Assembly: GCF_007829035.1 (NCBI RefSeq)
Contig: NZ_VIVQ01000001.1
Coordinates: forward strand, 2,170,001 to 2,234,000
Source: Rudaeicoccus suwonensis
GTDB taxonomy: Bacteria > Actinomycetota > Actinomycetes > Actinomycetales > Dermatophilaceae
DNA length: 64,000 nt
Reading direction: 5' to 3'
The stretch's first letter is position 1. Each line of letters starts with the position of its first letter. The notes beneath the pieces are model-generated. The model did not search any database, was not told where the DNA came from, and was given only the letters and a program-made list of their open reading frames with translations. Shown piece by piece: positions 1-64,000 of this stretch. The translations under genes and the position numbers were made by a program.

Positions 1-31
1 TCTACTCTTTGATCCCGAAGATACTCCCTTT

Positions 32-66
32 CTTGGAATGTATCTATCAATCAGATACATTCCAAG
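32..66. promoter_or_regulatory. Probable autoregulatory operator of the AbiE pair
   Basis: A perfect inverted repeat with 14-bp arms (32-45 and 53-66, core TGGAATGTATCT / AGATACATTCCA) surrounds a 7-nt spacer and ends two bases before the ATG at 68. AbiEi antitoxins are known to repress their own operon by binding inverted repeats in the promoter, so I infer that this is that operator. An ATG at 38 lies inside the left arm, which argues against using it as the start. Confidence 0.65.
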
Positions 67-67
67 T

Positions 68-2051: not shown

Positions 2052-2221
2052 TGAGAACTGAACTGGCCGACATGGGATCGCGAGGCTTGGCCAGCCCGCG
2101 ACGTGCAACCGTCGACGTGATCAGGAACGCGACGTCATAGCGCGCGGATGTCCGGGCCTGGTTGCGCGGTGCGTGTCGGTCTATCCAGTTAGCGTGTGTC
2201 ACGAGCAAACGAGGAGCAGCA

Positions 2222-4013: not shown

Positions 4014-4111
4014 TCGAGAAACGCCCATGGCTCATCTTCCCGGCGGCAGAAAGTGAGGGATTGCCTTTCAGAAGTGCACGGACGCCGTTCAGGCTGAGCA
4101 TCCTTCATGGC

Positions 4112-4143
4112 TTGACCTTGACGCAGGGTCAGCCCTGCATGGT
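4112..4143 (+). promoter_or_regulatory. Candidate MerR-controlled promoter of the ABC exporter
   Basis: TTGACC (4112-4117) and CATGGT (4138-4143) are separated by about 20 bases, longer than the usual 17. The spacer holds the perfect dyad GCAGGG-TCAG-CCCTGC (4123-4138), overlapping TGAC...GTCA. Over-long spacers containing a dyad are the hallmark of promoters activated by MerR proteins through DNA distortion. A MerR gene closes the same operon (5701-6537). The start codon at 4150 implies a leaderless or very short leader. Confidence 0.55.
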
Positions 4144-4149
4144 CGTGCC

Positions 4150-4920: not shown

Positions 4921-4922
4921 CG

Positions 4923-7906: not shown

Positions 7907-8755
7907 GTGACCACTCCCCTGCGCCAGGCCATTGCGGCGCCGTGCTTCGACGCGACTGCGAGCGAACTCGTCGACCTGGCAGTGCAGGCCGAAAACCGAG
8001 GGTTCGACGGCTTTTTCATCTGGGACCACCTGCAGTTCTCCAACGACATCGACGGCCCGGCCGTGCACGACCCGTGGGCCTTGCTCGCCGTCATCGCCGA
8101 CCGCACCGAGCGCATCCGGATCGGCCCGATGGTCACCCCGGTCTCGCGCCGGCGACCGTGGGTGCTCGCGCGACAGAGCGTCACGATCGACCACCTCAGC
8201 AACGGACGCCTCACCCTCGGCGTCGGCCTCGGCTCACCCGCGCAAGGTGACTTCGCCCGCTTCGGCGACGCCGCCGACAACAAAGAGCGCGCAGCGCTGC
8301 TCGACGAAGGCCTCGCCGTCTGGGCGGGCCTGTGCAGCGGTGAGGAGTTCAGCTACACCGGCACGCACTACCGCATCAAGCCCACGCGGTTCAGCCCCCG
8401 CCCGATCCAGCCGCACATCCCCGTGTGGGTCGGCGGCGTCCTGCCCGCGCAGCGGCCACTGCGCCGCGCCGCCGCCTGGGACGGCGTCGTGCCGATCACC
8501 TACCGCGACGGCCGCCTCACCCGACCGACCGCGCCAGAGATGGCCGCCGCCCTTCACACCATCGAGAGTGCGCGCGACGACATGACCGGTTACGACAGCG
8601 TCGTCTGGTCACCGCTTCACGGGACCGAGCCACAGGACAGCGACATACTTGATGAGTATGTCGCAGCCGGTGTCACCTGGTGGATCGAAACCGCTGTGCC
8701 ACAACCGAATTGGCAGGCGGACCTGCGCACTCGCATCGCCAACGGCCCCGTCTGA
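7907..8755 (+). CDS. LLM-class flavin-dependent oxidoreductase
   Basis: A 282-residue luciferase-like monooxygenase-family protein (FMN- or F420-dependent TIM barrel). Typical features are the opening 'LRQAIAAPCFDATASELVDLA', GFDGFFIWDH, the run RIRIGPMVTPVSRRRPWVLAR, and LSNGRLTLGVGLG. I chose GTG 7907 because the family begins at about this point; upstream residues in the frame do not look like protein, and a -10-like GATACG lies close before it, so the mRNA may be leaderless. The substrate is unknown. It stands alone between relic DNA and a toxin-antitoxin pair. Confidence 0.85.
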   Translation: MTTPLRQAIAAPCFDATASELVDLAVQAENRGFDGFFIWDHLQFSNDIDGPAVHDPWALLAVIADRTERIRIGPMVTPVSRRRPWVLARQSVTIDHLSNGRLTLGVGLGSPAQGDFARFGDAADNKERAALLDEGLAVWAGLCSGEEFSYTGTHYRIKPTRFSPRPIQPHIPVWVGGVLPAQRPLRRAAAWDGVVPITYRDGRLTRPTAPEMAAALHTIESARDDMTGYDSVVWSPLHGTEPQDSDILDEYVAAGVTWWIETAVPQPNWQADLRTRIANGPV

Positions 8756-31066: not shown

Positions 31067-34000
31067 TCAGACGACCGCGCGCTGCCAGACGCCCTGCTCG
31101 TGCACGAACAGCAGGATGCACGCCGACACCGGCAACCCCGTTGCCGTCTGCACCATCTGTCGATACGCCAGCAGCTGTGGCCGGTAGTACGCAGTGCGAG
31201 TATCCAGTGCCGCCTCGGGGATCTGATCGGTCTTGTAGTCGACGATCACCAGGGAGCCGTCATCGTCCTGGTACAGCAGGTCGATGACGCCCTCCAGGAT
31301 CTGCCCGTCATCCGGTATGCCGACGAACATCTCGCGCCAGTGCCGACGGTCAGCGGCGCACTGAACCACGTTGTGTGACAGGGCGTTCCGGGCAAGGGTC
31401 GCCACCAGCTGCTCGTATGGCGTGACGCCCTCGGCGATGCACTGCGCCGCGACGACTGCAGGCAGGTCAGCACCGTCACCGCGCAGCTCGACCGCCTGCA
31501 ACGAGCCGTGCACGGCTCGACCGATGGCCGCACCGTCGCGGCCCTTGGCCCACGCAGGCGAGTCGAGTGCACGAGCACCCTTCGCCGCTCCGGGCGGTGA
31601 CACCTCCTCGGCGGCGCGTGCACCGGCAGCGTCAGAGCCGACCGCCGGCGCCTCGGCATCCGTGACCTCCGCATCATCGGACGTCTGAGGATCGGCGGCG
31701 ACTGCAGGTGCGCCGGCACCCAGCAGCGCCTGCGGGTCCGTGCCTTCGAGCCCGGACGCGCTGCGGGACCACGAGGTTCGCGTGCGGTCGGTCGCCTGCT
31801 GCCACTGGCGCTGCCAGTCGTCGAAGTCCGGTGGTGGCGTCACCGCCCGTTGCTGCGTCGAGGAGGCCCCGGCGTCGGTCGGCTCCGGGCTGAGCACGTC
31901 AGCGCCCGCACCGATCGCGCCGCTGGCAACCAGCAGGTCGGCATTGCTCCGAGCGTTTCTCGACGACCGGTGCAACGAGACAACGAGATGGTCACGCGCA
32001 CGGGTCGCGGCGACATACATCAATCGGGCACGCTCAAGGTCACCCATCTGCTCGTCGATCGGCGCGTAGTCGTCGAAATCTGCTGTAGCGAGGTCCTTTT
32101 GGACGCGCAGCTCATAGTCGTCGTGGCGCCAGAGCAACTGCACCCCGGTGCTGTTGCGCGGCTGGGACGACAAACCGGACAGGATCACCACCGGGAACTC
32201 CAGGCCCTTGGCGGCGTGCACCGTCATGATGCGGACGGCGTCGACGTCGAGCTCCGGCAACAAGGACTCCGACGCTTGGGCGGAACTTTTGGCCTGGCCG
32301 GCGGCCCAGGCGAGATACGCGCGTAGCCCGCCGTGTTCGACCTCCGCCCAGGCACGCGCCTGATCGATGACATACCGCAGCCGCCGCCACGTGTCGCGTG
32401 CCCGAGGGCCGTCTCCGGCGAGCTCCATGACTCGTCGATCGGTGACGATCGTGTCCAGCAGCTCGCTCGGAGCGAGCCACGGTGCCCGGAAATGCAGCCG
32501 CCGCAGGTAGTTCACGCTGCTGCCCACCGGATGATCGACCAGGTCGTCCGGCACCCGAGCGCGCAGGTTGAAGCTGCCGCCGTCACGCTTCCAGGTCCAC
32601 AGGTCGTCGTCACCGCACCCGAAAAGTGGCGACCGCAGGGCCGTCACCAGTGACAGTTCGTCCGACGGATCGGCAATGACACGCGCCGCAGCAAAAACAG
32701 CGCGCACCTCAGGCGCGGCATACACCAGCGAACTCGCATCGGACCGATAGTCGATGCCGGCGCGATCGAGTGCGGTCTCCAGAAAGGGCAACGACGTGCG
32801 CGCCGGAATCAGGATCGTGATGTCTCGCTTGCGCACCGGCCGCCATTCGCCACAGGTGCCCTGGGTGGTCCACCCGTCGCGCAGCGCCGTCTGAATGACT
32901 CCGGCGACCTCGTCGGCCTCGATCTGACGAACCTGGGCGATGCGCATGGGCTTGGAATCCTGCTCATGCGGATGCTCGCCGAGGATCCCCACCGATGGTC
33001 CTGCCGTGGCGGCAGACCGGACAGGATCAAGCGCCTCGTATGCCGGTTGCGCATCATGCTGCTGCTGGATGTGTTTGCCGAAGACCACGTTCACCCAATC
33101 GACGATCGGTGTGGTGGTGCGGAAATTCGTTGTGAGCGCGACGCTTTCGCCGATGACCTCACGCGCGCCGAGATAGGTGCGGATGTCGGCGCGGCGGAAC
33201 CGGTAGATCGACTGCTTCGGGTCACCGACGACGAACAGCGAGCCGGGTGGCACCTCGACCTGACGCCAGTCATCCTGAGTTGCCGTAGCCCCGCCTGCGA
33301 TGCGGGTCGCGATCTCGATCTGGATCGGGTCGGTGTCCTGGAACTCGTCGAGCAGCAGTCGCTGGTAGCGGTGCTGCAGGCTCGCCCGCACTTCGGCGTT
33401 GTCCCGCAACAGGTTGCGCGTCAACACCAGCAGGTCGTGAAACTCCAGGGTGCCATTGGCCCGCCGCTCCTCCGCAGCCGCCAGCACCTCCTGCGAAAAC
33501 CAGCGGGCCAGGGTCCGCAGCACAGCCGCCTTCAACGGGGCGAGTGCGTCTTGCGCTGCCGCGTGCAGCCCCGGGATGTCGACACGCAACGCCTTGAGGT
33601 CGCCGCTCTTCCAGTTCTCCTGGCGTCCGCTCTTGCCGACCTTGAGCGCGGGCACTGCGGACAACCACCGAATCTCGGTGATGAGATCCGCTGTGGTGGG
33701 ACGAGATTGCAGCCACTGCTCGATCTGCAGCATCGGCGCGAGCAGGGTGTCGTCGTCGGCGGTGCAGTGCCTGCGTTGGTCGAGCACGTCCTGCGCCGCG
33801 CGCCGGATCGCCGTGGAATCGGGCGTGCTCAGGCGAAGCGCAGGGTGGCTCAGCACGTGCGAGTCGATGAGATCCCAGTCGTTGCCGAGCTGGGTCGCCA
33901 GCTGCTGCAACTGGCTCTCGGTGACGCCGAGTTCGATTGCGGCCAGCAGGGTTTCGCCCATTGCATCGTCGTCGAGCAGGCGACGCCACATCGTGCGCCA

Positions 34001-34435
34001 GCGCGCCTCTGCAGCGACCGACGAGCCCACGGCGTCGCGCACCTCCAGCAGCGGCGGGATGCCGGCTTCGATCGAGTGCTGCACGAGGATTCGCTGGGCA
34101 AACGCGTGCAACGTGCCGATCGCGGCAAGATCGAGACCGTCGAGCGCTGCATCGACCAACTCGTGATCGTGGTCGGCACGCGCCTTCTCGAAGGACTCCC
34201 GGAGCCGCTCGCGCAACTCGGCTCCCGCGCGTTCGGTGAAGGTCACCGCCGCGATGTGCTGAATGTCGATGCCGTCTCGCAACACCAGGGTCCGAATGCG
34301 CCCCACCAGTGCAGAGGTCTTCCCCGAGCCGGCACCGGCATCGACGAACAAGGTCTCGTCGGTGCACTCACAAATCCGGCGGCGCGCGTCCGCATCGGTC
34401 AATTCATGGACTTCAGAGTCGAATTCGCCGCTCAC
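31067..34435 (-). CDS. AddA-like UvrD-family helicase-nuclease
   Basis: A 1122-residue superfamily 1 helicase with a C-terminal nuclease. Walker A VDAGAGSGKT (31-40), DEFQDTDP, VGDPKQSIYRFRRAD, TVHAAKGLEFPVV and MYVAATRARDHL are the helicase motifs; near the C-terminus EGVIDLLY...VIVDYKTD and QLLAYRQ are the PD-(D/E)XK nuclease residues. With the AddB-like partner it should form a heterodimer that resects double-strand breaks. It starts at GTG 34435, which overlaps the partner's stop codon by four bases. Between helicase and nuclease is a low-complexity Ala/Asp/Pro linker (31640-31870). Confidence 0.88.
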   Translation of the reverse strand: MSGEFDSEVHELTDADARRRICECTDETLFVDAGAGSGKTSALVGRIRTLVLRDGIDIQHIAAVTFTERAGAELRERLRESFEKARADHDHELVDAALDGLDLAAIGTLHAFAQRILVQHSIEAGIPPLLEVRDAVGSSVAAEARWRTMWRRLLDDDAMGETLLAAIELGVTESQLQQLATQLGNDWDLIDSHVLSHPALRLSTPDSTAIRRAAQDVLDQRRHCTADDDTLLAPMLQIEQWLQSRPTTADLITEIRWLSAVPALKVGKSGRQENWKSGDLKALRVDIPGLHAAAQDALAPLKAAVLRTLARWFSQEVLAAAEERRANGTLEFHDLLVLTRNLLRDNAEVRASLQHRYQRLLLDEFQDTDPIQIEIATRIAGGATATQDDWRQVEVPPGSLFVVGDPKQSIYRFRRADIRTYLGAREVIGESVALTTNFRTTTPIVDWVNVVFGKHIQQQHDAQPAYEALDPVRSAATAGPSVGILGEHPHEQDSKPMRIAQVRQIEADEVAGVIQTALRDGWTTQGTCGEWRPVRKRDITILIPARTSLPFLETALDRAGIDYRSDASSLVYAAPEVRAVFAAARVIADPSDELSLVTALRSPLFGCGDDDLWTWKRDGGSFNLRARVPDDLVDHPVGSSVNYLRRLHFRAPWLAPSELLDTIVTDRRVMELAGDGPRARDTWRRLRYVIDQARAWAEVEHGGLRAYLAWAAGQAKSSAQASESLLPELDVDAVRIMTVHAAKGLEFPVVILSGLSSQPRNSTGVQLLWRHDDYELRVQKDLATADFDDYAPIDEQMGDLERARLMYVAATRARDHLVVSLHRSSRNARSNADLLVASGAIGAGADVLSPEPTDAGASSTQQRAVTPPPDFDDWQRQWQQATDRTRTSWSRSASGLEGTDPQALLGAGAPAVAADPQTSDDAEVTDAEAPAVGSDAAGARAAEEVSPPGAAKGARALDSPAWAKGRDGAAIGRAVHGSLQAVELRGDGADLPAVVAAQCIAEGVTPYEQLVATLARNALSHNVVQCAADRRHWREMFVGIPDDGQILEGVIDLLYQDDDGSLVIVDYKTDQIPEAALDTRTAYYRPQLLAYRQMVQTATGLPVSACILLFVHEQGVWQRAVV

Positions 34436-37400
34436 TTCTCCTCCTCGGCCGGGTCGCCTGTCGTCGCAAGAGCATCGGGCTCGATCAGTGTCACGAGATC
34501 TCGCAACGGCCTGGTGCCGCGGAGCTGCTGCCACCGCGAGCGCGGCTCGGCATAACCGAGTCCGTCGGGATTGCAATAGGGACACTGGATCCAGGAAAAG
34601 TCGTCGGTGGCGGGTGGCCGCAACGGGAACACGCCGTCGCGGATCGACGACGACACGGTGCCCACAGCCTCGCGGAAGGTCGTGTCGACCTCGGCCGTCA
34701 ACTCAAGCGGCACCCGTCTCCTGCCGTCGCCATCACCAACGAACCAATACGCGGCCTCGACGGGGGTGTGTGCGTCGCCGTACAACGCGCGCACGGCATG
34801 GGCGTAGGCCGGCAGCTGCAGCTTCGTGCCACCGATGACCGGATCTTCGGGGCAGATCTGCATGAATCTGCCGGGTTTCCCGGTCTTGATGTCGGTGACG
34901 ACCAAGGTGCCGTCGGCCGCTCGGTCGACCTTGTCTGCGGCGCCGGTCAGCTGGACCGTGCCACCCGGCACGTCGAGCACGACATCGACCCCGCCGCGGC
35001 CGAAGCCGGCTTCACTGCTCACCACCGCCAGACCACGAGAGGCGCGGTCGCTGTCATCGACGTCGAGCATCGTCTGAAGGACACCCTTGATCTCGACCAA
35101 CGACTGCTCCCACAGCCGTGTGTGTCCGGCGCGACCCGTCGTGACGAACTCCGCCGCGAATTCGTCGGCGATCTGCAGCAGCCGCACGTGCGCCTGCTGA
35201 TCCCATGGCTCGCCGTATCCAGGCAACTGCCCGGACTGTTGGCGTTCGGTGATGAGAACGTCGAAACAGTGGTGCACGAAGGTGCCGATGTCGGCCTTGC
35301 TCACCTGCACGATGGACTCGGGATCCTCGATCGGCGACACCCGCAGCACGCGGTTGACCAGATGCTGGAAGGGACACGCGACATACTTCTCGAGCATCGT
35401 CGGCGAGGTGTATTCACCCTCCGACAACGGCGAGAGTCGTGCCGCGTCGACACCGATCATCCCGTCGAAGCGGCCACCCTCCCGGTCGCCGCGCCCGGCG
35501 TTCATCGCTCGTGCCGCCGTCAGCGCCTCGTCGGCGAACCGCCAGCCGACCAGGCCGGCCCGCAACCGCCATTCCTGCTCGGTCGCCAGGTGCGTCGCCG
35601 TCGACAGACCCGAGGTGTATGACGCAACCTCCGTCAACCCGCTCACATCCGCGAATCCCGTTGCGGTCAGCGTCATCTCGCCGGTCAGTGATCGTATCGA
35701 CGGCAGCAGCCATCGGCTCGGAATGCGCTGTGTCTGCTGTCGCAGATCTCCTCGTGCAAATGTCACCGCCACCTCACCAGCCAAGGCGAACGCCGCCAGC
35801 AGGCAGCGGTGCTTCTCGGCGATGCGCTCCCGCAGCGTCACCAGCGCCTCGCCAAAGGTCTCGCGCACTGCCTCCGCCAGCAGCGGGTCGTCGCTCAGCC
35901 GCCCGGGGTAGACGTCCTCCGAGAGGCCGCACACGACGACGACATCAAGATCGAGGCCGGCGCCGGACTCGACCGGACCGACGTAGACACCCTCACCGAA
36001 GCGGCCGACTCGCATCGTCGCCGACTCCAACTGTGCGATCAGCACCTCCTCGATGATGACGAGGCTGACGGGGATCGCCGACTCGTCGAGCACGGTGAGC
36101 CCCTCGATCGCGCCCAGCACACTGACCCGGGCGTACTGCTCCTCCGGTGGCAGTCGAGCAGCCTGCGTGTCCGGCAGCAGGTCCGACACCAGTGTCCGCA
36201 GGCTGTCGGCCGCCTCCTGCCACGTAGCGGATCCCCCGATCCCGGTGAGCCGGTCGCGGATCCACCAGACGGTGTCACGCATCGTGGTCGCCTCGGCGAT
36301 GCGGCGCGCCAGATAGCCGTGCGGATCCTCCCGCGCCGCGAGCGTCGCGATCGTGGCATCGACCCGGTCGCGCCAGTCGGCCCCGTCGACGATGCCGCAG
36401 TTGCGCGACAAGCGCTCCCACGACGCCGCGGGGATCGCCGAGCCGTCGACGGCTCTGGCGGGCACCTCCGACAGCGTTTGCAGCACATCGGCGCGCGGAT
36501 AGCCGCTGCGCTGAATCCGCAACAGTCCCAGCACAAAACGAGCGAAGGCGCGCTCGGTCACAGGTCGTGCTCCCGGGCCGTTGAAGGTGACGCCGGCCGC
36601 AGTCAACTGCTCCTGCACGATGCGCGCGTAGGGGCGACGGTTGCCGTAGAGCACCGCTACGCGATGCGCGGGATGCGTGCCCAGTGCCGCCACCACCTCA
36701 CGCACCACGGCGCGCACCTCATCGTCGGCGTCGCTGGCATGTATGACGCGGTCGGCCGTCGCCGGATCACTTTCGGCCGCAGGCACGGTCACCGACGCCT
36801 CACCGGAGCCGACCTCACCCGCAGCGCTGCCCGTCACGGCAGCAGCCACCCGCAACGGGCCGGCGTCCGCCCGCGCATCGCCCGTCACACCGCACACGAC
36901 ATGTATGTCGGATGCGGCCGCGAGCGCCGTCAGCACCTCGAGCTCGACCGGTCGCATCGCCACGGGCAGATACACGACCGTCGGTGACAGCCCGGCGGGC
37001 GTGCGGCACACCAGCGCTGCAGCCCGCAACAGGTCGGCCTCGTCATACCAGTGTTTCGACAGACGGACCCACACGTCGTCGTGGATCCGCAGCACCTCGC
37101 GCACAAGGGTGCCCGGCTCCGCCCGAAGGCTCGCGAGCGTCGCGTCGTCGACCAGGCGTAGCTCGCGCGACACGCGCTCCAGCGCGGCCGACGTGGCGGG
37201 ATGGTCTGCCACCACACCGAATTCACCAGGGTGCTCGCTGAGTGACTCCCGGATACAGGCGGCGACCAACGCTGCAGTCGCGGGCCGACGACTCTGCGCG
37301 GCGAAGACCGGCGCGGCGAATCGTTCGGCCAATCCGGCCAGGGTGAGGCAGTCGACGGCGGCGATGCCGGGCGAGCCGTCGGTCAGGCCGCGCGCGAGAG

Positions 37401-37551
37401 TTCGACGAACGGTCAGCCCGGTGAGGTGGTCCGGCACGATGACGGTGACCGGTGCCAGCGGATCACCGGCTTTGACCTCGCGGACGACATCTCGCAGGAC
37501 CGCGAGCGTCGCAGCGCCATACCTGGTGATGTGCAGTTGCGCCTGGCCCAT
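34432..37551 (-). CDS. AddB-like PD-(D/E)XK nuclease subunit
   Basis: A 1039-residue partner of the AddA-like protein. The N-terminal half is helicase-like but its first motif reads VIVPDHLTG, with no usable Walker A, so it is unlikely to hydrolyse ATP. The C-terminal nuclease has FVHHCFD, ADKVDR...VVTDIKTG and LQLPAYA. Cys in KYVACPF and the pair CPYC near the end resemble the AddB iron-sulfur site, but the usual fourth Cys is not seen (NPDGLGY follows). The gene is first in a two-gene operon and overlaps the next by four bases. Confidence 0.85.
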   Translation of the reverse strand: MGQAQLHITRYGAATLAVLRDVVREVKAGDPLAPVTVIVPDHLTGLTVRRTLARGLTDGSPGIAAVDCLTLAGLAERFAAPVFAAQSRRPATAALVAACIRESLSEHPGEFGVVADHPATSAALERVSRELRLVDDATLASLRAEPGTLVREVLRIHDDVWVRLSKHWYDEADLLRAAALVCRTPAGLSPTVVYLPVAMRPVELEVLTALAAASDIHVVCGVTGDARADAGPLRVAAAVTGSAAGEVGSGEASVTVPAAESDPATADRVIHASDADDEVRAVVREVVAALGTHPAHRVAVLYGNRRPYARIVQEQLTAAGVTFNGPGARPVTERAFARFVLGLLRIQRSGYPRADVLQTLSEVPARAVDGSAIPAASWERLSRNCGIVDGADWRDRVDATIATLAAREDPHGYLARRIAEATTMRDTVWWIRDRLTGIGGSATWQEAADSLRTLVSDLLPDTQAARLPPEEQYARVSVLGAIEGLTVLDESAIPVSLVIIEEVLIAQLESATMRVGRFGEGVYVGPVESGAGLDLDVVVVCGLSEDVYPGRLSDDPLLAEAVRETFGEALVTLRERIAEKHRCLLAAFALAGEVAVTFARGDLRQQTQRIPSRWLLPSIRSLTGEMTLTATGFADVSGLTEVASYTSGLSTATHLATEQEWRLRAGLVGWRFADEALTAARAMNAGRGDREGGRFDGMIGVDAARLSPLSEGEYTSPTMLEKYVACPFQHLVNRVLRVSPIEDPESIVQVSKADIGTFVHHCFDVLITERQQSGQLPGYGEPWDQQAHVRLLQIADEFAAEFVTTGRAGHTRLWEQSLVEIKGVLQTMLDVDDSDRASRGLAVVSSEAGFGRGGVDVVLDVPGGTVQLTGAADKVDRAADGTLVVTDIKTGKPGRFMQICPEDPVIGGTKLQLPAYAHAVRALYGDAHTPVEAAYWFVGDGDGRRRVPLELTAEVDTTFREAVGTVSSSIRDGVFPLRPPATDDFSWIQCPYCNPDGLGYAEPRSRWQQLRGTRPLRDLVTLIEPDALATTGDPAEEEK

Positions 37552-43049: not shown

Positions 43050-46000
43050 TCAGTTGCCGACCAGGCACGCCGGACCCAGCAGAGCCTTCAGATCACCGAA
43101 CAGCGCCGGCGATGCCGTCACGCGCAGGGCATCGTCGAGGCGGACGGTGACCGACCGGCCGGGTTGGGTGAGCTTCAGGTGCACCTCGGTGGCGCCAGGG
43201 TGCTCGCCCAACACGCTCTTGAGCTTCTGGGCCATCCCGTTGTTGGCACGCACCAAGGGCAGCGTCAACATCACCGGTCCGCGCACGTCGCCCTTCAACT
43301 CGGGGAGAGTGAGTTCGGAGGCGGACAACTGCTTTCCGTCGTCGCGGTCCATCACCCGGCCCTTGATCACACACACGACGTCAGGGTTGAGCATCGTCGA
43401 CACGGGCATGTAGGACTTCGCGAAGAACATCACGTCGACCGAACCCTCGAGATCCTCGACCGTGGCAATGGCCCACAGTTCACCGCGCTTGTTCCGCTTG
43501 ATCTGCACGCCGGTGATGAGGCCGGCGATGGTGACCATCGCGCCTTCCTCCGGGGCGTCGTCACTGTGCAGCTTGGCGATGGAGGTGTCGGCATACTGCG
43601 CCAGAAGGCGCTCGATGCCGAACAACGGGTGGTCGCTGACATAGAGGCCGAGCATGTCGCGCTCGAACGCCAGCTTGGTCTGCTTGTCCCACTCGATCTG
43701 CGGAATCGGCGGCAGGGCTGCGAGTTCGATCCCCGCGTCTCCCCCGAAGCCGGCGAACAGGCTCTCCTGGCCCTGCTCGCTCTTCTTGGCCTCGTCGGCG
43801 AGTGAGTCGACATACGTCTCGTGGACCGCAACCAAACCCTGCCGGGTGTGTTGCAGATCGTCGAATGCCCCTGCCTTGATGAGGGATTCGACGGTCCGCT
43901 TGTTGCAGACGCCGGACCCGCCCTTGCGCAGGAAGTCCTCGAAGGAGGCGAAGCCGCCCTTGTCCTCTCGGGCCCGCACGATCGCGTCGACGACGTTGGA
44001 ACCGACATTGCGCACCGCACCCAGACCGAACCGGATGTCCTCGCCGACGGCCGTGAAGTCGGCGACCGACTCGTTCACAGCCGGTGGCAGCACCCTGATG
44101 CCGAGCTTGCGGGTGTCGGCCAGATAGGTCGCCATCTTGGTCTTGTCGTCGCCGACCGAGGTGAGCAGCGCGGCGGCATACTCCGCCGGGTAGTTCGCCT
44201 TGAGGTAGGCGGTCCAGTAGCTGACCAGCCCGTATCCGGCGGTGTGCGACTTGTTGAATGCGTAACCGGAGAACGGCAGCATGACGTCCCACAGGGCTTG
44301 GGTCGCCTCGGCGGAGTAGCCGTTCTTGGTCATGCCCGCGGAGAAGTTGTCGAACTCCTTGGCCAGGATCTCGGGCTTCTTCTTGCCCATGGCGCGTCGC
44401 AGCAGGTCGGCGCCGCCCATGGTGTAGCCCGCGAGCTCACGGGCGATCGCCATGATCTGCTCCTGGTAGACCAGCAGGTGGTAGGTCGTACCCAGGATCG
44501 GCTCGAGAGCCTGCTCCAGCTCGGGGTGGATAGGGCTGATCGGCTGCCGGTTGTTCTTGCGCTCGGCGTAGTTGATGTGAGCGTTGGCTGCCATCGGGCC
44601 GGGCCGGTAGAGCGCCAGGACCGCGGCGATGTCCTCGAATCGGGTCGGTGCCATCAGCCGCAGCAGACCGCGCATGGCGTTGCCGTCGAGCTGGAAGACC
44701 CCGAGCGTGTCGCCGCGGGCCAGCAACTCGAAGGTCTTGACGTCGTCCAGCGGGATCGACTCGGTGGTGATCTGCTCCCCGCGGTTGGTGGCGACGTTCT
44801 TGACCGCCTGATCGATGATGCCCAGGTTCCGCAGACCCAGGAAGTCCATCTTGATCAGGCCCATCTCCTCGCAGTGCGGGTAGGAGAAGCCGGTGATGAT
44901 GGTGCCGTCCTTGTCCCGGCGGTGCATCGGGATGAGGTCCAGCAACGGCGCGGACGACAGGATCACGGCAGCCGCGTGCACGCCGGTGCCGCGGATCTTG
45001 CCCTCCAGACCCTTGGCGGTGTCCATGACCTTCTTGACCTCCGGCTGCGATTCATACATCGCGCGGATGTCGACGCCCTCGTTGTACCGAGCGTGTTCGG
45101 GGTTCCACAACTCGGCCAGCGGAACGCCCTTGCCCTGCACATCGGGCGGCATCGCCTTGGAGATCTGATCGCCGAGACTGAACGGGAAACCCAGGATCCG
45201 GTTGGCGTCCTTCACCGCCGCCTTGGCCTTGATGGTGCTGAAGGTGTTGACCTGAGCGGTGTATTCGGCGCCGTACTTCTCGGTGACGTAACGCACCATC
45301 TTGTCGCGCTGGCGGTCGTCGAAGTCGAGGTCGACATCCGGCGGGTTGATGCGCTCAGGGTTGAGGAAGCGCTCGAACAGCAGCTGGTGCTCCAGCGGGT
45401 CGAGCTCGGTGATGCGGGTCAGGTAGGCGACCATCGAGCCGGTCGCCGAGCCACGACCCGGCCCGACCGGGATCCCGTTGTCGCGGGCGTACTTGCAGAT
45501 GTCGGCGACGACCAGGAAGTAGGAGCTGAAGCCCATCGGCTCGATGACGGCCATCTCGGTCTCGATGCGCTCGAGCACCTCGGGAGCCGGGTCGTCGCCG
45601 TAGCGCTCCTGCAGGCCGACCTTGATCGCCTCGCGCAGGTATGACGCCTGGGTCTGCCCCTCGGGTACGTCCGGGAACTGCGGCATCCGGTCGACGTAGG
45701 TGAAGACCTCGTCGTAGTCGCCGATCATCTCGGCCACCTTGAGCGTGTTGTCGCACGCGTCGGGAAGCTCGCGGAACAGCTCGCGCATCTCGGCGGCGGA
45801 CTTCAGGTAGTAACCGGTGCCGTTGAACTTGAACCGGCCCGGGTCGTCCTTGTTCTTGCCCACGCCGATGCACAGCAGGTCGTCGTGGCTGTCGGCTTCG
45901 TCCTCGGTGATGTAGTGACTGTCGTTGGTCGCCAGCAACGGCAGGTTGAGCTTCTTCGCAATGTCGAGAAGGCCTGTGCGCACTGACCTTTCGATGTCGA

Positions 46001-46616
46001 GGCCGTGGTCCATCAGCTCAAGGAAGAAGTTCTCCTTGCCGAAGATGTCCTGGTACGCCGCTGCCGCTTCGATCGCCTCGTCGAACTGCCCGAGCCTCAG
46101 CCGGGTCTGCACCTCACCGGAGGGGCAGCCGGTGGTGGCGATGATGCCGGTGCCGTGCTGGGACAGCAGCTCGCGGTCCATCCGCGGCTTCATGTAGTAG
46201 CCCTCGAAGCTGGCCAGCGAGCTCAGCCGGAACAGGTTGCGCAGACCGTGCGCGTCCTTGGCCCACATCGTCATGTGGGTGTAGCGGCCACCGCCGGAGA
46301 CGTCCTTGCCGCCCTCACCGTCGACGTTCGCCTCGCGCTTGCCACCGGGAGCCCAGAACTCCTGCTGTCGCGAGTGACGGGTGCTGGGCGCGACATACGC
46401 CTCGATGCCGATGATCGGCTTGACCGGCGAGCCCTTGGACGCCATGTAGAAGTCGTAGGCGCCGAACATGTTGCCGTGGTCGCTCATCGCGATCGCCGGC
46501 ATCTCGAGCCGCTCGACCTCGGTGAACATGGGTTTGACCTTGGCCGCTCCGTCCAGCATGGAGTACTCGGTGTGCACGTGCAGGTGCACGAAACTGGAGG
46601 CTGGCTTGTCTGACAT
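43050..46616 (-). CDS. dnaE: DNA polymerase III alpha subunit
   Basis: A 1188-residue replicative polymerase. It begins with a PHP domain (FVHLHVHTEYSMLDGAAK, residues 9-26), followed by the palm (PDVDLDFDDRQRD with catalytic Asp residues, and GPGRGSATGS), fingers, a helix-hairpin-helix region and an OB fold near the C-terminus (GAMVTIAGLITGVQIKRNKRGELWA). Length and order match actinobacterial DnaE1. It is the last large gene of the minus-strand block, downstream of rluD and lspA. Confidence 0.95.
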   Translation of the reverse strand: MSDKPASSFVHLHVHTEYSMLDGAAKVKPMFTEVERLEMPAIAMSDHGNMFGAYDFYMASKGSPVKPIIGIEAYVAPSTRHSRQQEFWAPGGKREANVDGEGGKDVSGGGRYTHMTMWAKDAHGLRNLFRLSSLASFEGYYMKPRMDRELLSQHGTGIIATTGCPSGEVQTRLRLGQFDEAIEAAAAYQDIFGKENFFLELMDHGLDIERSVRTGLLDIAKKLNLPLLATNDSHYITEDEADSHDDLLCIGVGKNKDDPGRFKFNGTGYYLKSAAEMRELFRELPDACDNTLKVAEMIGDYDEVFTYVDRMPQFPDVPEGQTQASYLREAIKVGLQERYGDDPAPEVLERIETEMAVIEPMGFSSYFLVVADICKYARDNGIPVGPGRGSATGSMVAYLTRITELDPLEHQLLFERFLNPERINPPDVDLDFDDRQRDKMVRYVTEKYGAEYTAQVNTFSTIKAKAAVKDANRILGFPFSLGDQISKAMPPDVQGKGVPLAELWNPEHARYNEGVDIRAMYESQPEVKKVMDTAKGLEGKIRGTGVHAAAVILSSAPLLDLIPMHRRDKDGTIITGFSYPHCEEMGLIKMDFLGLRNLGIIDQAVKNVATNRGEQITTESIPLDDVKTFELLARGDTLGVFQLDGNAMRGLLRLMAPTRFEDIAAVLALYRPGPMAANAHINYAERKNNRQPISPIHPELEQALEPILGTTYHLLVYQEQIMAIARELAGYTMGGADLLRRAMGKKKPEILAKEFDNFSAGMTKNGYSAEATQALWDVMLPFSGYAFNKSHTAGYGLVSYWTAYLKANYPAEYAAALLTSVGDDKTKMATYLADTRKLGIRVLPPAVNESVADFTAVGEDIRFGLGAVRNVGSNVVDAIVRAREDKGGFASFEDFLRKGGSGVCNKRTVESLIKAGAFDDLQHTRQGLVAVHETYVDSLADEAKKSEQGQESLFAGFGGDAGIELAALPPIPQIEWDKQTKLAFERDMLGLYVSDHPLFGIERLLAQYADTSIAKLHSDDAPEEGAMVTIAGLITGVQIKRNKRGELWAIATVEDLEGSVDVMFFAKSYMPVSTMLNPDVVCVIKGRVMDRDDGKQLSASELTLPELKGDVRGPVMLTLPLVRANNGMAQKLKSVLGEHPGATEVHLKLTQPGRSVTVRLDDALRVTASPALFGDLKALLGPACLVGN

Positions 46617-57922: not shown

Positions 57923-59127
57923 GATCGCGCCGCCGCCGACACGGCCTCGTGGATCATCGCGACGAGCTTCTCGTCCGCTTCGCCATGACCTTGCGCTCGT
58001 GCAGCCGCACCCATGAGTGCCAGGCGATCGGCGTTCTTGGCCAGTGGAATCACTTGCTGCACAACGTAATCGGCGGTGAAATCGGCATTGTCGACGACGA
58101 TCGCGCCACCTGCATCGACAACGTCGGCACAGTTGAGTCGTTGTTCGCCGTTGCCGATCGGCAGCGGCACGAAGACAGCGGGCAGTCCGATGGAGGCCGT
58201 CTCGCAGACCATGTTCGCGCCGGCGCGCGTGACCACGAGATCGGCTGCGGCGTAACACAATTCCATCCGGTCGGCATACGGCAACACGACGTATGCCGCA
58301 TCTCCCCCGTCAGGCTTCGCGGCCGTCGCACCGGCGTCCGGATCGAACTCCTTGCCGCGACCGGTCACGTGCAGCACCTGCACACCGGCGCTGCGCAACG
58401 CCGCGACCGCGCCGGCGAAGGCCTCGTTGATGCGCGCGGCGCCCAGCGAACCGCCGGTCACGAGAATCGTCGGCATCGCGTCGGTCAGACCGAACTCGCG
58501 CAAGGCCTCCGGACGCAATGCCGCGCGGTCGAGACCGGTGATCTCGTGGCGCAGCGGCATACCGAGCAGACGGGCGCCGGGCAGCTTCGTCGCAGAGAAC
58601 GTCGTGGCGATGAAGGATGTGAAACGTGCGCCCAGGCGCGTCGCGAGACCGGGACGGGCGTTGCCCTCGTGCACCACGATCGGCACGCCCGCACGACGGG
58701 CCGCCAGGAACGCCGGCGGGCAGACATAGCCGCCGAACCCGACCACGACATCGGCTTCCGCGTTGCGCACCACGTCGGTGGCCTGCCGCACCGCGCGACG
58801 AAAGGTCAGAGGGAAGCGCAGCGCCGCGAGGTCGGGGCGACGCGGAAAGGCTGCCTTCGGGATGACCTTGAGGTCGTACCCGCGTTCGGGGACGATCGTC
58901 TCCTCAAGGCCGCCAACCGACCCGACCACGGTGATGCGGACGTCGGGATTTTCGCGGCGCAAGGCATCGGCGGTGGCCAGCAGAGGTGAGATGTGGCCGG
59001 CCGTTCCACCACCGGCGAGGACGACCGAGGTCAGGGCCGCGGCATCCGATGATCGCGCAGGAACGACACCGTCGCCGGATCGAGCACTGCTGTCGGTCCC
59101 ACCGTGCTCAGCTGCGGTGTCGCTCAC
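57919..59127 (-). CDS. murG: Lipid II synthase (UDP-GlcNAc transferase)
   Basis: A 402-residue glycosyltransferase family 28 enzyme with the two glycine-rich loops GGGTAGHISP near the start and VTGGSLGAARINE in the middle, and the C-terminal donor-site stretch RAGANMVCETASIGLPAVFVPLPIG. It adds GlcNAc to lipid I at the membrane. The likely start is GTG 59127 (overlapping ftsW by four bases); the first 35 residues before the first loop are acidic and Ser-rich, longer than in many MurG proteins. A much longer upstream frame runs through ftsW and murD and is not coding. Confidence 0.93.
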   Translation of the reverse strand: MSDTAAEHGGTDSSARSGDGVVPARSSDAAALTSVVLAGGGTAGHISPLLATADALRRENPDVRITVVGSVGGLEETIVPERGYDLKVIPKAAFPRRPDLAALRFPLTFRRAVRQATDVVRNAEADVVVGFGGYVCPPAFLAARRAGVPIVVHEGNARPGLATRLGARFTSFIATTFSATKLPGARLLGMPLRHEITGLDRAALRPEALREFGLTDAMPTILVTGGSLGAARINEAFAGAVAALRSAGVQVLHVTGRGKEFDPDAGATAAKPDGGDAAYVVLPYADRMELCYAAADLVVTRAGANMVCETASIGLPAVFVPLPIGNGEQRLNCADVVDAGGAIVVDNADFTADYVVQQVIPLAKNADRLALMGAAARAQGHGEADEKLVAMIHEAVSAAARS

Positions 59128-60422
59128 CGACGCCCCACCGGCAGGACGGCCAGTGTCCGCTTGACCGCGTTCGGCCGGGCTGCAAGAGCTTCCTTGCACG
59201 CCGGCTCGTTGCGGGCGAACGAGATCAGGATGCCGAGGCCGAGAAGTGAGGTCACCAGCGCCGATCCGCCGGAGGACACCAGCGGCAGCGGAACGCCGAT
59301 GATCGGCAAGAGGCCGGTCACCGAACCGATGTTGATGATGGCCTGAGCGAGGATCCAGGTGATGATGCCGGCGGTCGCGATGCGCACGAAGAAGTCTTTG
59401 CTCGTCACGATCAACCGGTAGCCCGCATAGCCGAGAGCGACATACAGCGCGACGACGGTCAGGGTGCCCGGTAGACCGAGTTCCTCGCCGATGATGGCGA
59501 AGATGAAGTCGTTGTGTGCCTCGGGCAGCCAGGACCACTTCTCGCGACTGGCCCCCAATCCGACGCCCCACCAACCACCGTCCGCCATGGCGTAGAGACC
59601 GTGGACCTTCTGCCAGCAACCCGTCGACTGTGCGTTGGAGCAGGTGCCGAGCCAGGACGACAGTCGCCCGGACCGGTTGGAGTTTGTCGCGACGAAGGCG
59701 GCCGCACCGGCAGCAGCCAGCGCGGCGAAGCCTGCGAAGACGCGCATGCGCACACCGGCCACGAACAAGATGGCGCCCAGGATCGCGGCCAAGACCATCG
59801 TCGTGCCCAGGTCGTGCCCGGCGAGCACCAGGCCGAGCAGGACGATCGCCACGGGAAAGATCAGCGGGATGATCACGTGCCGGGATCGGCCGATGAGCTT
59901 GCGTTTGCGGGTCAGGATGAGCGCTCCGATCAGCACGAGCGCGACTTTGCCGGCCTCGGACGGCTGCATGGTGAACGAGCCGAAACCGATCCAGTTGCGG
60001 TTGCCCTGCACCGTGCGACCGAGCGGGGAGAAGACCAGCATCTCCAGCAGGACGGCACCGATGAACGCCGGCAACGCCAGGACCTTCCAGACACGCACCG
60101 GCATCCGGCTGGCGCACGCGGCGACGATGACGCCGAGCACCGCGAAGATCGCCTGGTTGTTGAACACCGTGTATGGCGATCCGCTGGCTTGGTACGACGT
60201 CACACTCGAGGCGGACAGCACCATGACCAGCCCGAAGGCCACCAGTAGCGAGGTGGCGCCCAGCAGCAGGTAATACGGAGCGACGGGCGACTCGAGTCGT
60301 TCGAGCAGGATGCGCGGTGACAACGGATTGCCGGCCGACTCCTGCATCGAGGCATCTGTGACACGCGGACTCCGCGGTGCTCCGGCAGCGCCGGAGGTCG
60401 CGCGGGTGGTGGTTGCGCTCAC
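59124..60422 (-). CDS. ftsW: Peptidoglycan polymerase FtsW (SEDS family)
   Basis: A 432-residue membrane protein with about ten hydrophobic helices and SEDS motifs: GSPYTVFNNQAIFAV, NRNWIGFGSFTMQPSEAGKVALV, GHDLGTTMV and the late LPIIGVPLPLVSSGGSALV. It polymerises lipid II at the septum with a class B PBP. A 45-residue cytoplasmic N-terminal extension precedes the first helix. It starts at GTG 60422, overlapping murD by four bases. Confidence 0.94.
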   Translation of the reverse strand: MSATTTRATSGAAGAPRSPRVTDASMQESAGNPLSPRILLERLESPVAPYYLLLGATSLLVAFGLVMVLSASSVTSYQASGSPYTVFNNQAIFAVLGVIVAACASRMPVRVWKVLALPAFIGAVLLEMLVFSPLGRTVQGNRNWIGFGSFTMQPSEAGKVALVLIGALILTRKRKLIGRSRHVIIPLIFPVAIVLLGLVLAGHDLGTTMVLAAILGAILFVAGVRMRVFAGFAALAAAGAAAFVATNSNRSGRLSSWLGTCSNAQSTGCWQKVHGLYAMADGGWWGVGLGASREKWSWLPEAHNDFIFAIIGEELGLPGTLTVVALYVALGYAGYRLIVTSKDFFVRIATAGIITWILAQAIINIGSVTGLLPIIGVPLPLVSSGGSALVTSLLGLGILISFARNEPACKEALAARPNAVKRTLAVLPVGRR

Positions 60423-61960
60423 TGCGCGCCGCCGGCCAAGTCGCGCACCGCCGCGGCGAAGGCGTCACCGCGTGCTCCGTAGTTGTCGAACATGTCCATC
60501 GATGCGGCCGCCGGTGCCAGCAGCACCACATCACCTGCTCGTGCGTGCTCGCTCGCTGCGCGGACTGCCTGGGCCATGGCCCCAGTTTCGGTGCTCGAGA
60601 TGTCCACGACCGGGACATCGGGCGCGTGTCGCTGCAACGCCTCGCGCAAAAGGCCACGATCACGGCCGATGAGCACGACCGCGCGCAACCGGGATGCCGC
60701 ATCTCGCACCAGGTCGTCGACGTCGGCGCCCTTGAGCAGGCCTCCGGCGATCCACACCACCGAGTCGAGCCCGGCGATCGACGCCGCAGCCGCACCGGTG
60801 TTGGTGGCCTTGGAGTCGTCGACGTAGCGCACGCCGTCGATGGTGGCGACGGTCGAAACGCGGTGCGGCTGCGGTTGGTAGTCGCGCAGGCCGTCACGCA
60901 CGGCGACCGGACCCACGCCATACGCACGTGACAGCGCACCCGCGGCCAGGGCGTTCGCCACATAGTGCGGAGCCGGCGGGGTGCCGTCCGGGCCGACGAG
61001 GTCGCTGAGGTTGGCGAGTTCGGCGGCATTGCGCTGCCTGTCCGGCACGAACGCGCGGTCGGCCAGGACGTCCTCGACCAGGCCCACCATCGAGGGAGCG
61101 GGGGTCAGCATGGTGAAGCCGACCGCCCGACATCCGTCGACGACTTCGGCGTCCTCGAGCAGGTGTTCGGTCGTGTGGTCCTGGACGTTGTAGATCGCCG
61201 CCACCTGCGTGCGGTCGAAGATGCGACCCTTGACGCGGCGGTACTCCTCGAAGGACCCGTGCCAGTCGAGGTGGTCCGGCGCGACGTTGAGCAGGCACGA
61301 GGCGTATGGCGAGATGCTGCGTGACCAGTGCAATTGGAAGGTCGACAGCTCGACCGCGAGAACGTCATACGGCTCGGGGTGCAGCACGGCCTCAAGGATC
61401 GGCAGCCCGACGTTTCCGGCGGCAGTGGCGCGCAGGCCGGCCGCGCGCAGGATCGACTCCAGCATGGTGACAACGGTCGTCTTGCCGTTGGTGCCGGTCA
61501 CGGTCAGCCAGGGCGCAGCGCCCTCCTTGGCGCGCATCCGCCACGCGAGTTCGACCTCGCCCCAGACCGGGATCTGCGCCGCAGCCGCTGCCTGTAGGAA
61601 GGGGTTGACCGGCGGCACACCCGGCGAAGTGACCACCAGATGGGTGCCCGGCGGCGGGGCGTCCGGCACGTCGTCCCCGAAGATCACTGTTGCGTCGAGC
61701 ACCTGCAGGATCTGCGCACGCTCGAGCATGAGGGGGGTGCTGTCACGGCTGACCACCGTCACGGCCGCGCCGCGTTCGAGCAGCGCGTCGGCCGCCGCGA
61801 AACCGCTGAGACCCAGACCGACGACGACGACCTGCAGACCGGACCAGTCGGCGTCACGGTGCGTCAGCCGGCGCAACCCGCCCTGCGGCTCGTATGCCGG
61901 ATCGACCGGCCACAACTCCCCGTCGGCGGACGGCTGACCCTGCGAGGGGTCGGTCGTCAT
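60419..61960 (-). CDS. murD: UDP-N-acetylmuramoylalanine--D-glutamate ligase
   Basis: A 513-residue Mur ligase: VVVGLGLSGFAAADALLERGA near the start, TVTGTNGKTTVVTM (P-loop), NVAPDHLDWHGSFEEYR and VDDSKATNTGAAAASIAG are MurD motifs. It adds D-glutamate to UDP-MurNAc-L-Ala. An N-terminal extension of about 40 residues precedes the first motif. The start ATG 61960 overlaps mraY by four bases. Confidence 0.95.
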   Translation of the reverse strand: MTTDPSQGQPSADGELWPVDPAYEPQGGLRRLTHRDADWSGLQVVVVGLGLSGFAAADALLERGAAVTVVSRDSTPLMLERAQILQVLDATVIFGDDVPDAPPPGTHLVVTSPGVPPVNPFLQAAAAAQIPVWGEVELAWRMRAKEGAAPWLTVTGTNGKTTVVTMLESILRAAGLRATAAGNVGLPILEAVLHPEPYDVLAVELSTFQLHWSRSISPYASCLLNVAPDHLDWHGSFEEYRRVKGRIFDRTQVAAIYNVQDHTTEHLLEDAEVVDGCRAVGFTMLTPAPSMVGLVEDVLADRAFVPDRQRNAAELANLSDLVGPDGTPPAPHYVANALAAGALSRAYGVGPVAVRDGLRDYQPQPHRVSTVATIDGVRYVDDSKATNTGAAAASIAGLDSVVWIAGGLLKGADVDDLVRDAASRLRAVVLIGRDRGLLREALQRHAPDVPVVDISSTETGAMAQAVRAASEHARAGDVVLLAPAAASMDMFDNYGARGDAFAAAVRDLAGGAQ

Positions 61961-63054
61961 ACGCCGACCACCCACTCCGCGTAGAAGAGGCCGAGTCCGA
62001 GCGCGACGCACAGTCCGGCGATGATCCAGAACCGGATGGTGACGGTGATCTGCTCCCACCCGAGCATCTCGAAGTGGTGGTGGATCGGGGTAATGCGGAA
62101 CAGCCGCTTGCCGACGCCACCGTTGCTGCGTTTGGTGGCCTTGAAATAACTGACCTGCAGGATCACCGAGACGGTTTCCATCACGAACAGGCCGCCGAGG
62201 ATCACCACGAGCAACTCGGTGCGGGTCATGATCGCCAAACCGGCGAGCGCACCACCAAGGCCCAGGGAGCCGGTGTCGCCCATGAAGATCTTGGCCGGAG
62301 AGGCGTTCCACCACAGGAACCCGAAGCAGGACCCCATCACGCACGCCGCGACGAGCGCCAGATCGAGCGGGTCGCGCACGTTGTAACACTTGCTGGAGAA
62401 GTTGAACTGGCAGTTCTGATTGAACTGCCACACGCTGATCAGGACGTAGGCACCGAAGACCATCACCGAGGCGCCGGCCGCCAGGCCGTCGAGGCCGTCG
62501 GTGAGGTTCACACCGTTGCTGGTGCCGGCGATCATCAGGTTGGCCCAGACCACGAACAGGATGAGTCCGATGACGGTGCCGTGGAATGCGAGGTTCATCC
62601 AGGTGTCACGCACGAACGAGATGCGATAGCTGGCCGGAGTGATCCCGCCACGGGAGAACTTCGTGGCCAGAACCGCGAAGATCACCGCCACCAGCGTCTG
62701 CCCCGCCAACTTCTGCCAGGAATTCAGGCCGAGCGAGCGCTCGTGCGAGATCTTCGTCCAGTCGTCGAGAAATCCGACGAACCCGATCCCGACCATCAGG
62801 AAGAGAACGAGCACCCCCGAAACCGTAGGGGCGTCCCAGGTGAACAGGTGCGCCAGCGCGTAGCCCAGCACGGTGCCCGAAATGATGACGATGCCGCCCA
62901 TCTGGGGCGTGCCGCGCTTGGTGTGGTGGGTGGTCGGGCCGTCGTCGCGGACGAACTGGCCCCAGCCCTTGCGCTTGGCCAGCGTGATGAAGGAACGGGT
63001 GCCGAGAAGCCCGATGATGAGCGCGATCGTCGACCCGATCAGGACTGCCCTCAC
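61957..63054 (-). CDS. mraY: Phospho-MurNAc-pentapeptide transferase
   Basis: A 365-residue membrane enzyme that makes lipid I. About ten hydrophobic helices carry the family motifs GTPQMGGIVII, FLDDWTKI (DD motif), TDGLDGLAAG, AKIFMGDTGSLGLGG and ITPIHHHFEMLGW. A stretch of residues about 230-260 (FNQNCQFNFSSKCYNVRDPLD) is a Cys-containing loop typical of actinobacterial MraY. It starts at GTG 63054, overlapping murF by four bases. Confidence 0.95.
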   Translation of the reverse strand: MRAVLIGSTIALIIGLLGTRSFITLAKRKGWGQFVRDDGPTTHHTKRGTPQMGGIVIISGTVLGYALAHLFTWDAPTVSGVLVLFLMVGIGFVGFLDDWTKISHERSLGLNSWQKLAGQTLVAVIFAVLATKFSRGGITPASYRISFVRDTWMNLAFHGTVIGLILFVVWANLMIAGTSNGVNLTDGLDGLAAGASVMVFGAYVLISVWQFNQNCQFNFSSKCYNVRDPLDLALVAACVMGSCFGFLWWNASPAKIFMGDTGSLGLGGALAGLAIMTRTELLVVILGGLFVMETVSVILQVSYFKATKRSNGGVGKRLFRITPIHHHFEMLGWEQITVTIRFWIIAGLCVALGLGLFYAEWVVGV

Positions 63055-64000
63055 TGGGTGATCTCCCCACCTTGCTCGACTGTGATCCGGTCGCCAAGGT
63101 AACGCAATCCCGAGTCTCGGCTCGACTTCAGCAGCACCACGTCCCCGGACACCAGCAGGTCGGAGAGGAGGTTGTGCGCCTGCTCGACGTCGGCGACCTG
63201 GTGCACGCGCACTCCGCCCAGCGCCGCCGCAGCGGCGATCGGAGCCGCGCCCGTGCCAACGGCAACCACGTCGGTGACGCCAAGGGACGCCGCAGTCTCG
63301 CCGACGCCACGGTGCGCGGCCTCGGACTCGTCGCCGAGTTCCAGCATCTCCCCCAGCACCGCGACGGTGCGGCGCTCGCCGGCCATCTGGGCCAGTGCAT
63401 GCAGCGCTGCCTTCATCGAGTCCGGATTCGCGTTGTAGGCGTCGTTGACCAGCGTGACACCGGTCGGCAACTGGTGGACTTCCATCCGCCACCGGCTGAC
63501 CGGTCTGGCGGACTCCAGCGCACGCGCGATGGCGGCTCCGCCGAGGCCGAGTTCATGTGCAGCCACCGCGACGGCCAGCGCGTTGCCGACCTGGTGAGCG
63601 CCATACAGCTGAAGGCTGACCGGCAACGGCCCCTCGTCGGCGAGACCGACGATGGTGAACCGTGCCCGGCCGGAGTCGTCGAGCACGACGTCGTCGCACC
63701 GCACGTCGGCGTCCGGAGCCTGACCGACACGTATGACGCGTGCGGTCGTCTGCCGTGCCATCGCCGACACGCGCGCGTCGTCCGCGTTGAGGATGGCCAG
63801 ACCGCTCTCGGGCAACGCTTGCACGAGTTCGGATTTGGTGCGTGCGATCGCCTCGACCGAACCGAACTCGCCCAGGTGCGCGCTGCCGACATTGAGCACG
63901 ATGCCGATCGTCGGCGGGGCGATGCGGGTGAGATAGGCGATGTGGCCGACACCCGATGCGCCCATCTCGGCGACCAGGAAGTCGGTACTCGGTGTCACCC
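63051..64000 (-). CDS. murF: UDP-MurNAc-tripeptide D-Ala-D-Ala ligase, 5' end beyond the window
   Basis: Only the C-terminal part is present (316 codons); the gene runs off the right edge of the window. Visible are EMGASGVGHIAYLTRIAPPTIGIVLNVGSAHLG, the ligand-binding LVNDAYNANPDSMKAAL and LGEMLELG, which are MurF motifs. The P-loop should lie outside. It adds D-Ala-D-Ala to the UDP-MurNAc tripeptide. It overlaps mraY by four bases, so murF to murC form one tightly coupled operon. Confidence 0.93.
   Translation of the reverse strand, partial: VTPSTDFLVAEMGASGVGHIAYLTRIAPPTIGIVLNVGSAHLGEFGSVEAIARTKSELVQALPESGLAILNADDARVSAMARQTTARVIRVGQAPDADVRCDDVVLDDSGRARFTIVGLADEGPLPVSLQLYGAHQVGNALAVAVAAHELGLGGAAIARALESARPVSRWRMEVHQLPTGVTLVNDAYNANPDSMKAALHALAQMAGERRTVAVLGEMLELGDESEAAHRGVGETAASLGVTDVVAVGTGAAPIAAAAALGGVRVHQVADVEQAHNLLSDLLVSGDVVLLKSSRDSGLRYLGDRITVEQGGEITQ

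Follow-up and report, generated by a model that had tools for sequence, protein, structure and literature searches.

A 64,000-nt stretch of the genome of Rudaeicoccus suwonensis (contig NZ_VIVQ01000001.1, positions 2,170,001 to 2,234,000; the whole stretch is called the window here) carries an asymmetric octamer, 5'-GTATGNCG-3', arrayed on both strands along its entire length (1..64000). The copies were listed by coordinate and summarized in a sequence logo. There are 99 of them, 47 on the plus strand and 52 on the minus strand, at a mean spacing of about 0.6 kb. The mean in 100 dinucleotide shuffles of the window was 4.7, and the largest count was 11. The original prediction, made from the letters of the window, had put the copies at about 100 and the chance expectation below about ten; both figures are borne out, and the enrichment is stronger than stated. 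The pentamer GTATG is seen 116 times in the window, 103 times as GTATGNC and 99 times as the complete octamer, so that the 17 occurrences outside the longer form come close to the "about a dozen" noted before. Of the ten example positions given then, six match exactly and the other four miss by a single base, the copies being at 5742, 11450, 29496 and 36741. The N position is free (A 26%, C 37%, G 21%, T 16%); among the window copies it is C in 30, A in 28, T in 23 and G in 18.

The whole genome (G000; 3.83 Mb in seven contigs) contains 6,035 copies, of which 3,053 are forward and 2,982 reverse. A 464 kb sample from across the chromosome has 761 copies, where first- and second-order Markov models predict 37 and 48, which is a 16- to 20-fold excess. 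The third- and fourth-order expectations, 114 and 191, are too high, since the abundance of the motif itself raises the frequency of its sub-words. Recognition appears as all-or-none in the same sample: a change of any single base leaves no more than a background count, and the pooled words with one mismatch, 21 in number, show no enrichment (1,136 observed, about 1,260 expected). The flanks show no strong extension in the sequence logo and little beyond a three-base codon rhythm. The octamer is a real, exact, genome-wide word that is strongly maintained.

Coding copies, based on simple gene calls made in this analysis, are distributed over the sense frames as 20, 93 and 220 and over the antisense frames as 21, 137 and 101. 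The density is 1.59/kb inside genes and 1.57/kb outside. Synonymous-codon shuffles, pooled, give 64 copies in total against about 600 coding copies, and with a codon-aware null the octamer is still the strongest word of the genome. The original prediction had claimed that copies occur in all frames, in both orientations and in both coding and intergenic DNA, and that codon use is insufficient to explain them; all of this holds. It had also named two outcomes that would tell against it. One was a count near the third- or fourth-order Markov expectation, and the other was an enrichment due to codon-pair bias in one frame. Neither was found.

Orientation is balanced. The sample shows no replichore bias (385 and 376 copies by the sign of GC skew), and the motif-rich genomes of the family that were tabulated sum to 64,059 forward and 64,199 reverse copies. 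The FtsK orienting polar sequences (KOPS) and the SpoIIIE recognition sequences (SRS) are likewise asymmetric words of the octamer class found genome-wide, but KOPS point to the terminus; KOPS-like polarity is rejected here since replichore bias is absent. Close opposite-orientation pairs, which could form hairpins, are not in excess in the spacing table. Two such divergent pairs lie in the window: CGACATAC ... GTATGTCG at 8641..8663, with starts 15 bp apart, and a second one in the cell-division/MurG region at 58272..58298, with starts 19 bp apart. Because there is no surplus of these pairs, the motif is not a terminator-type inverted repeat, and that candidate is rejected.

The copies are spread evenly: over 390 kb of contig 2, counts in bins of 2.5 kb have a variance/mean ratio of 0.60 (p=2e-5). 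The spacing is specific to orientation. Neighboring copies share orientation in 342 of 854 cases in the first data set (p=7e-9). In the second, which comprises 420 kb of contig 2 and overlaps the first one by 20 kb, they do so in 296 of 720 (p=2e-6). The corresponding value for 18 control words is 51.7% of consecutive pairs. Metallococcus carri (G003) shows the same pattern (58/168, p=7e-5), as do three Flexivirga species taken together, some of whose sites are in common (37/113). Small samples from other dialects of the motif, described below, lean the same way without significance (for G022, 79/184, p=0.065). Within 400 bp, the number of same-orientation pairs is 0.65 times the random expectation (183/282) in the first set and 0.64 times (156/245) in the second, largely independent contig set, while opposite-orientation pairs are at 1.04 of random in both sets. 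The depletion of same-orientation pairs reaches about 0.6–0.8 kb, and opposite-orientation pairs are undepleted. Each orientation thus forms a separate series with a spacing of about 1.2 kb, and the process that maintains the word is therefore blind to the other orientation, which indicates that the reader of the word senses direction or strand, either traveling one way or reading one strand.

The two largest gaps in the first sample contain no copy of the octamer. One corresponds to an rRNA operon, the second to a low-GC accessory region in which an immunity-type gene lies. In addition, roughly 19 kb of contig 2 with two transposase genes contain 7 copies against 34.7 expected. This stretch is an acquired island depleted in the motif, in the way looked for in the DNA uptake sequences (DUS) and uptake signal sequences (USS) of other bacteria. 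Adjoining the island is a gene for the DnaB replicative helicase (L289 6983-10945, minus strand), which is split by an intein with LAGLIDADG endonuclease domains.

In the set of genomes compared, the window falls into a family of about 50 genera, taken here to be Dermatophilaceae in the sense of GTDB. Comparison of DnaE places the genome near Flexivirga and Metallococcus, which are Dermacoccaceae in NCBI terms. Among 24 genera of the family, several contain thousands of copies of the octamer and others nearly none. Density across 160 genomes is broadly consistent within genera, with sharp exceptions: four species of genus g49 have 0.69–0.83 copies per kb, and a fifth has 0.02. Single species nearly devoid of the octamer are G139 (g49) and G083 (g39), whose congeners have 0.3–0.8 copies per kb; these species may recently have either changed their dialect or lost the motif completely. 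A ComEC tree, with weak support at many of its deep forks, has the motif-free genera interspersed with motif-bearing ones.

Comparison with relatives also revealed that the motif, or a one-base dialect of it, is common to many genera. De novo word counts recover GTATGNCG in G000, G003, G010 and Flexivirga, and GTATGCCG in G006, G014, G016, G017, G020 and G021. All copies of GTATGNCG in G006 (46/46) and G016 (31/31) have C at the N position. The dialect GTACGNCG is used by G022 (6,107 copies), G023 (3,371 copies), Allobranchiibius and Luteipulveratus, and GAATGCCG by G011. The evidence is weaker for GGATGCCG in G015 and for a GTATGCGG form in G019; these two dialect assignments, and that for G004, are tentative. 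The sequence from G012, G002 and G007 is limited, and "no motif" for them means no excess of GTATGNCG or GTACGNCG, with a further dialect being possible. The family has at least four dialects (GTATGNCG, GTATGCCG, GTACGNCG and GAATGCCG), and possibly others. Two other words stand out in these counts. In a 20 kb sample of G022 (L128/L226) a GTCGAACTG/CCGTCGAAC word is so strongly repeated that it masks the motif in de novo counts; it probably belongs to a tandem-repeat gene. In the sample loci of G018, a genome without excess of GTATGNCG, the palindromic GCGTACGC is found 12 times against 0.8 expected, and it might be an unrelated dialect or a word similar to the highly iterated palindrome (HIP) of cyanobacteria.

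Alignment of the syntenic dnaE-comEC block, with G000 as the reference, sheds light on how the dialects replace one another. The block is anchored by dnaE (43050..46616, minus strand), whose copies at 43589, 43808, 44174, 45639 and 46391 show intact, switched (GTACGNCG) and lost states among relatives. Permuted control words are kept at 22–26% in this comparison. G003 keeps 22 of the 58 G000 sites (control words 24%). In G022, GTATGNCG is kept at none of the 66 aligned sites and GTACGNCG is in place at 17; in Allobranchiibius, it is kept at none of 19 and GTACGNCG is found at 10. The general T-to-C change is 13%, and the one-sided switch to GTACGNCG is therefore not drift. The motif-free G009 keeps 0 of 67 sites against 21% for control words. 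Many G000 sites differ by two or more bases from the words of relatives (e.g., 57443, 52954 and 63731), which indicates that new sites are also made. G017, a user of GTATGCCG, has 3 of 43 G000 sites, fewer than the control words, and its sites thus arose largely separately.

Several genes were considered as readers of the word, none of which emerged as the reader. The original prediction had proposed a Chi-like signal for an AddAB-like enzyme at 31–37 kb of the window. This pair (31067..37551, minus strand) consists of an AddA/RecB-like helicase-nuclease (31067-34585) and an AddB-like protein (34432-37551), and contains 11 copies of the octamer (1.7/kb), which is a normal density. No match of useful similarity was found in the 23 other family genera, and the best matches (32–33% identity) are from two other families; a solved-structure search with the AddB-like protein also gave no match. 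The operon was apparently acquired, either to replace the usual double-strand-break enzymes or to supplement them. Since the pair is private to this genome and the motif is common to many genera, the pair is rejected as the common reader, and that part of the original prediction does not stand as the common explanation. RecBCD is absent from G000. RecC is absent here and in most motif-bearing genera: it was found in 3 of the 15 genera with the motif and in 5 of the 9 without it (p=0.10). A RecBCD-Chi system is rejected on this ground. A tandem UvrD/PD-(D/E)XK pair of the AdnAB type is seen in one motif-bearing genus, G006.

The search for competence genes was positive: Tad, ComEC and DprA genes were found. 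ComEC and DprA are present in all 24 family genomes and are rejected as discriminating genes because they are universal. The TadB/TadC pair is present in 15 of 15 motif-bearing genera and in 6 of 9 without the motif (p=0.04); these tests of bearers against non-bearers ignore shared ancestry. The tad cluster includes TadA, TadB, TadC, Flp and TadE-like genes, and the extra genes beside it are housekeeping genes (prfB, ftsE/X, smpB), rejected as discriminators. TadE and the Tad minor pilins are present, with no obvious charge difference or other distinguishing feature that tracks the motif. PilM of the type IVa (T4a) pilus is absent from G000 and the strong bearers, with a weak match only in G019. 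This speaks against a ComP-type system in the strongly motif-bearing genomes.

These observations can be tentatively read as follows. The octamer is a self-DNA signal, most likely an uptake sequence for transformation through a Tad/Flp pilus and ComEA/ComEC, an interpretation with not quite an even chance of being right. A sequence-specific, direction-sensing reader would recognize the word as self-DNA, and selection or biased recombination would hold each orientation at a density of about one copy per 1.2 kb. The competence machinery (Tad/Flp pilus and ComEA/ComEC) would capture free DNA with the word, which would be imported single-stranded and then recombined. Word-bearing fragments would spread through the population, and the genome would fill with the word. 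If the specificity of the reader moved by one base, the word would be rewritten in place genome-wide (GTATGNCG, GTACGNCG, GTATGCCG), and if competence were lost, the word would vanish. Uptake as the process, the membership of the reader in the uptake machinery and the identity of the reader are all inferred from the genomic pattern.

Uptake sequences have been described in two families of Proteobacteria, and the original prediction had likened the octamer to them for its density. The likeness extends to orientation balance, distribution over frames, dialects, island depletion and the presence of Tad, ComEC and DprA genes, though it falls short of proof. Uptake is favored for two reasons: the balanced orientation, the dialects, the patchy loss and the scarcity in acquired DNA match the hallmarks of DUS and USS (PMC3630211, PMC1939737), and the genes that it requires are present. 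Another actinobacterium, Micrococcus luteus, needs Flp pili together with ComEA/ComEC for transformation, according to a paper that mentions no sequence preference (PMC4322843). The DUS of Neisseriaceae, which are patchy across genera with dialects (PMC3630211), also have thousands of short non-palindromic copies, equal in orientation, in coding and non-coding DNA, with dialects differing by one or a few bases between genera. The octamer differs from them in its host, an actinobacterium without T4a PilM, and in being an 8-bp word with one free position. Inverted-repeat pairs are not in excess, one-mismatch forms are unenriched and same-orientation copies repel each other. The USS of Pasteurellaceae resemble the octamer in their spacing near 1 kb, their lack of strand bias and their presence in coding DNA, and differ in that their one-mismatch forms are enriched. 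USS have flanking AT-rich segments, whereas the flanks of the octamer are nearly featureless.

Several points weigh against uptake. One-mismatch forms are enriched in known uptake sequences (PMC1939737) and not here. The orientation-specific spacing is not predicted by an orientation-blind double-strand receptor, and uptake in Haemophilus is indifferent to orientation (PMC1939737). Tad, ComEC and DprA are also present in several motif-free genera, and none of them tracks the motif exactly. No strongly motif-bearing genome has T4a PilM, and the Tad minor pilins show no obvious charge difference linked to the motif. The loss in G009 (0/67) is faster than simple decay after loss of competence, unless the sites were gained after the split. 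The literature search found no paper linking Flexivirga to natural transformation. Reportedly, the USS of H. influenzae are evenly spaced in each orientation, which would weaken the objection from orientation. In the same search, the spellings GTATGCCG, GTATGNCG, CGGCATAC and CGNCATAC were not found as such a motif, and no description of such a self-DNA signal in Actinomycetota was found.

A polar recombination signal similar to Chi is the main alternative, if a rather unlikely one. A helicase-nuclease, most plausibly AdnAB, that unwinds DNA from a double-strand end would read the octamer in one orientation and thereupon stop degrading and promote recombination. Both orientations would be required to an equal extent, each at even spacing, for two-ended breaks or for linear DNA entering the cell. 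This predicts the orientation-specific spacing, both in the pairs within 400 bp and in the shortage of neighbors sharing orientation in G000 and G003. Chi, the signal of RecBCD or AddAB, is also a short asymmetric octamer, over-represented genome-wide and read in one orientation, and its one-base variants occur across Proteobacteria (PMC8022716). RecBCD leans to the motif-free genera, as if another enzyme were the reader. However, Chi is typically polar relative to replication (PMC8022716), and the octamer has no replichore or leading-strand bias. RecBCD is lacking in G000, and the AddAB-like pair is confined to it. AdnAB is seen in one bearer genus, and if it is universal, the motif-free genera are left unexplained.

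It is also conceivable, though unlikely, that the octamer represents a new class of self-signal in Actinomycetota, neither a pilin-read uptake sequence nor a replication-polar Chi. Such a signal would be asymmetric and exact, read on one strand in one direction, with its orientations spaced independently, and rewritten in place at thousands of sites when the reader shifts by one base.

Quite unlikely is an epigenetic word of the HIP1 type, for which an orphan methyltransferase, or a DNA-binding protein acting in chromosome organization or in strand marking for mismatch repair, would need regular copies on each strand. The exact, enzyme-like, all-or-none recognition and the independent spacing of the two strands are consistent with it, and the C/T dialect base sits in a CpG. 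Cyanobacterial HIP1 (GCGATCGC) is a comparably dense, exact word of unsettled function that is linked to orphan methyltransferases (PMC4390886). HIP1 is, however, a palindrome tied to GATC/CGATCG methylation, unlike the octamer with its asymmetry and dialects. A chromosome-organizing site would be less expected to be depleted in acquired DNA and to have dialects across a whole family.

A functionless product of mutation is very improbable. Site-specific C-to-T change (deamination of methylated C) or T-to-C change (Vsr-like) would interconvert GTACGNCG and GTATGNCG, as the in-place C/T difference at the same sites and the scarcity of GTACGNCG in G003 (266 copies) and G010 (346 copies) might suggest. 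On the other hand, GTACGNCG is undepleted in G000, and both dialects reach about 1.5 copies/kb, against 0.46/kb for GTACGNCG and 0.05/kb for GTATGNCG in the motif-free G009. Many G000 sites derive from words at least two differences away, and mutation alone cannot yield orientation-specific spacing. Deamination as the sole cause is rejected because new sites are created. Finally, a codon, codon-pair or compositional artifact, to which the commonest frame, reading Tyr-(Ala/Asp/Gly/Val) with TAT, might point, has practically no chance of being the explanation and is rejected, given the enrichment in all six frames and in intergenic DNA and the outcome of the synonymous and codon-aware nulls.

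Two other genes of the window were observed. A 640-aa protein encoded at 16357-18279 (plus strand) has a Schlafen group 3 (SLFN-g3) DNA/RNA helicase domain and, judging from this domain, is a possible defense gene. A 1,036-aa frame at 57919-61029 (minus strand) has a MurG-like glycosyltransferase at residues 669–1018, preceded by about 660 residues, and is possibly an FtsW-MurG fusion or an over-long frame.

The orientation-specific spacing of the motif is a new feature, and it provides a simple statistic to separate candidate mechanisms in any genome. In these genomes, the octamer can serve at once as a marker for DNA that was acquired recently. The many sites that have switched in place offer a natural experiment on the change of motif specificity. 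With four or more dialects within a single actinobacterial family, so dense a motif would either bring a new phylum and a new type of pilus into the range of uptake sequences or represent a Chi-like signal there.

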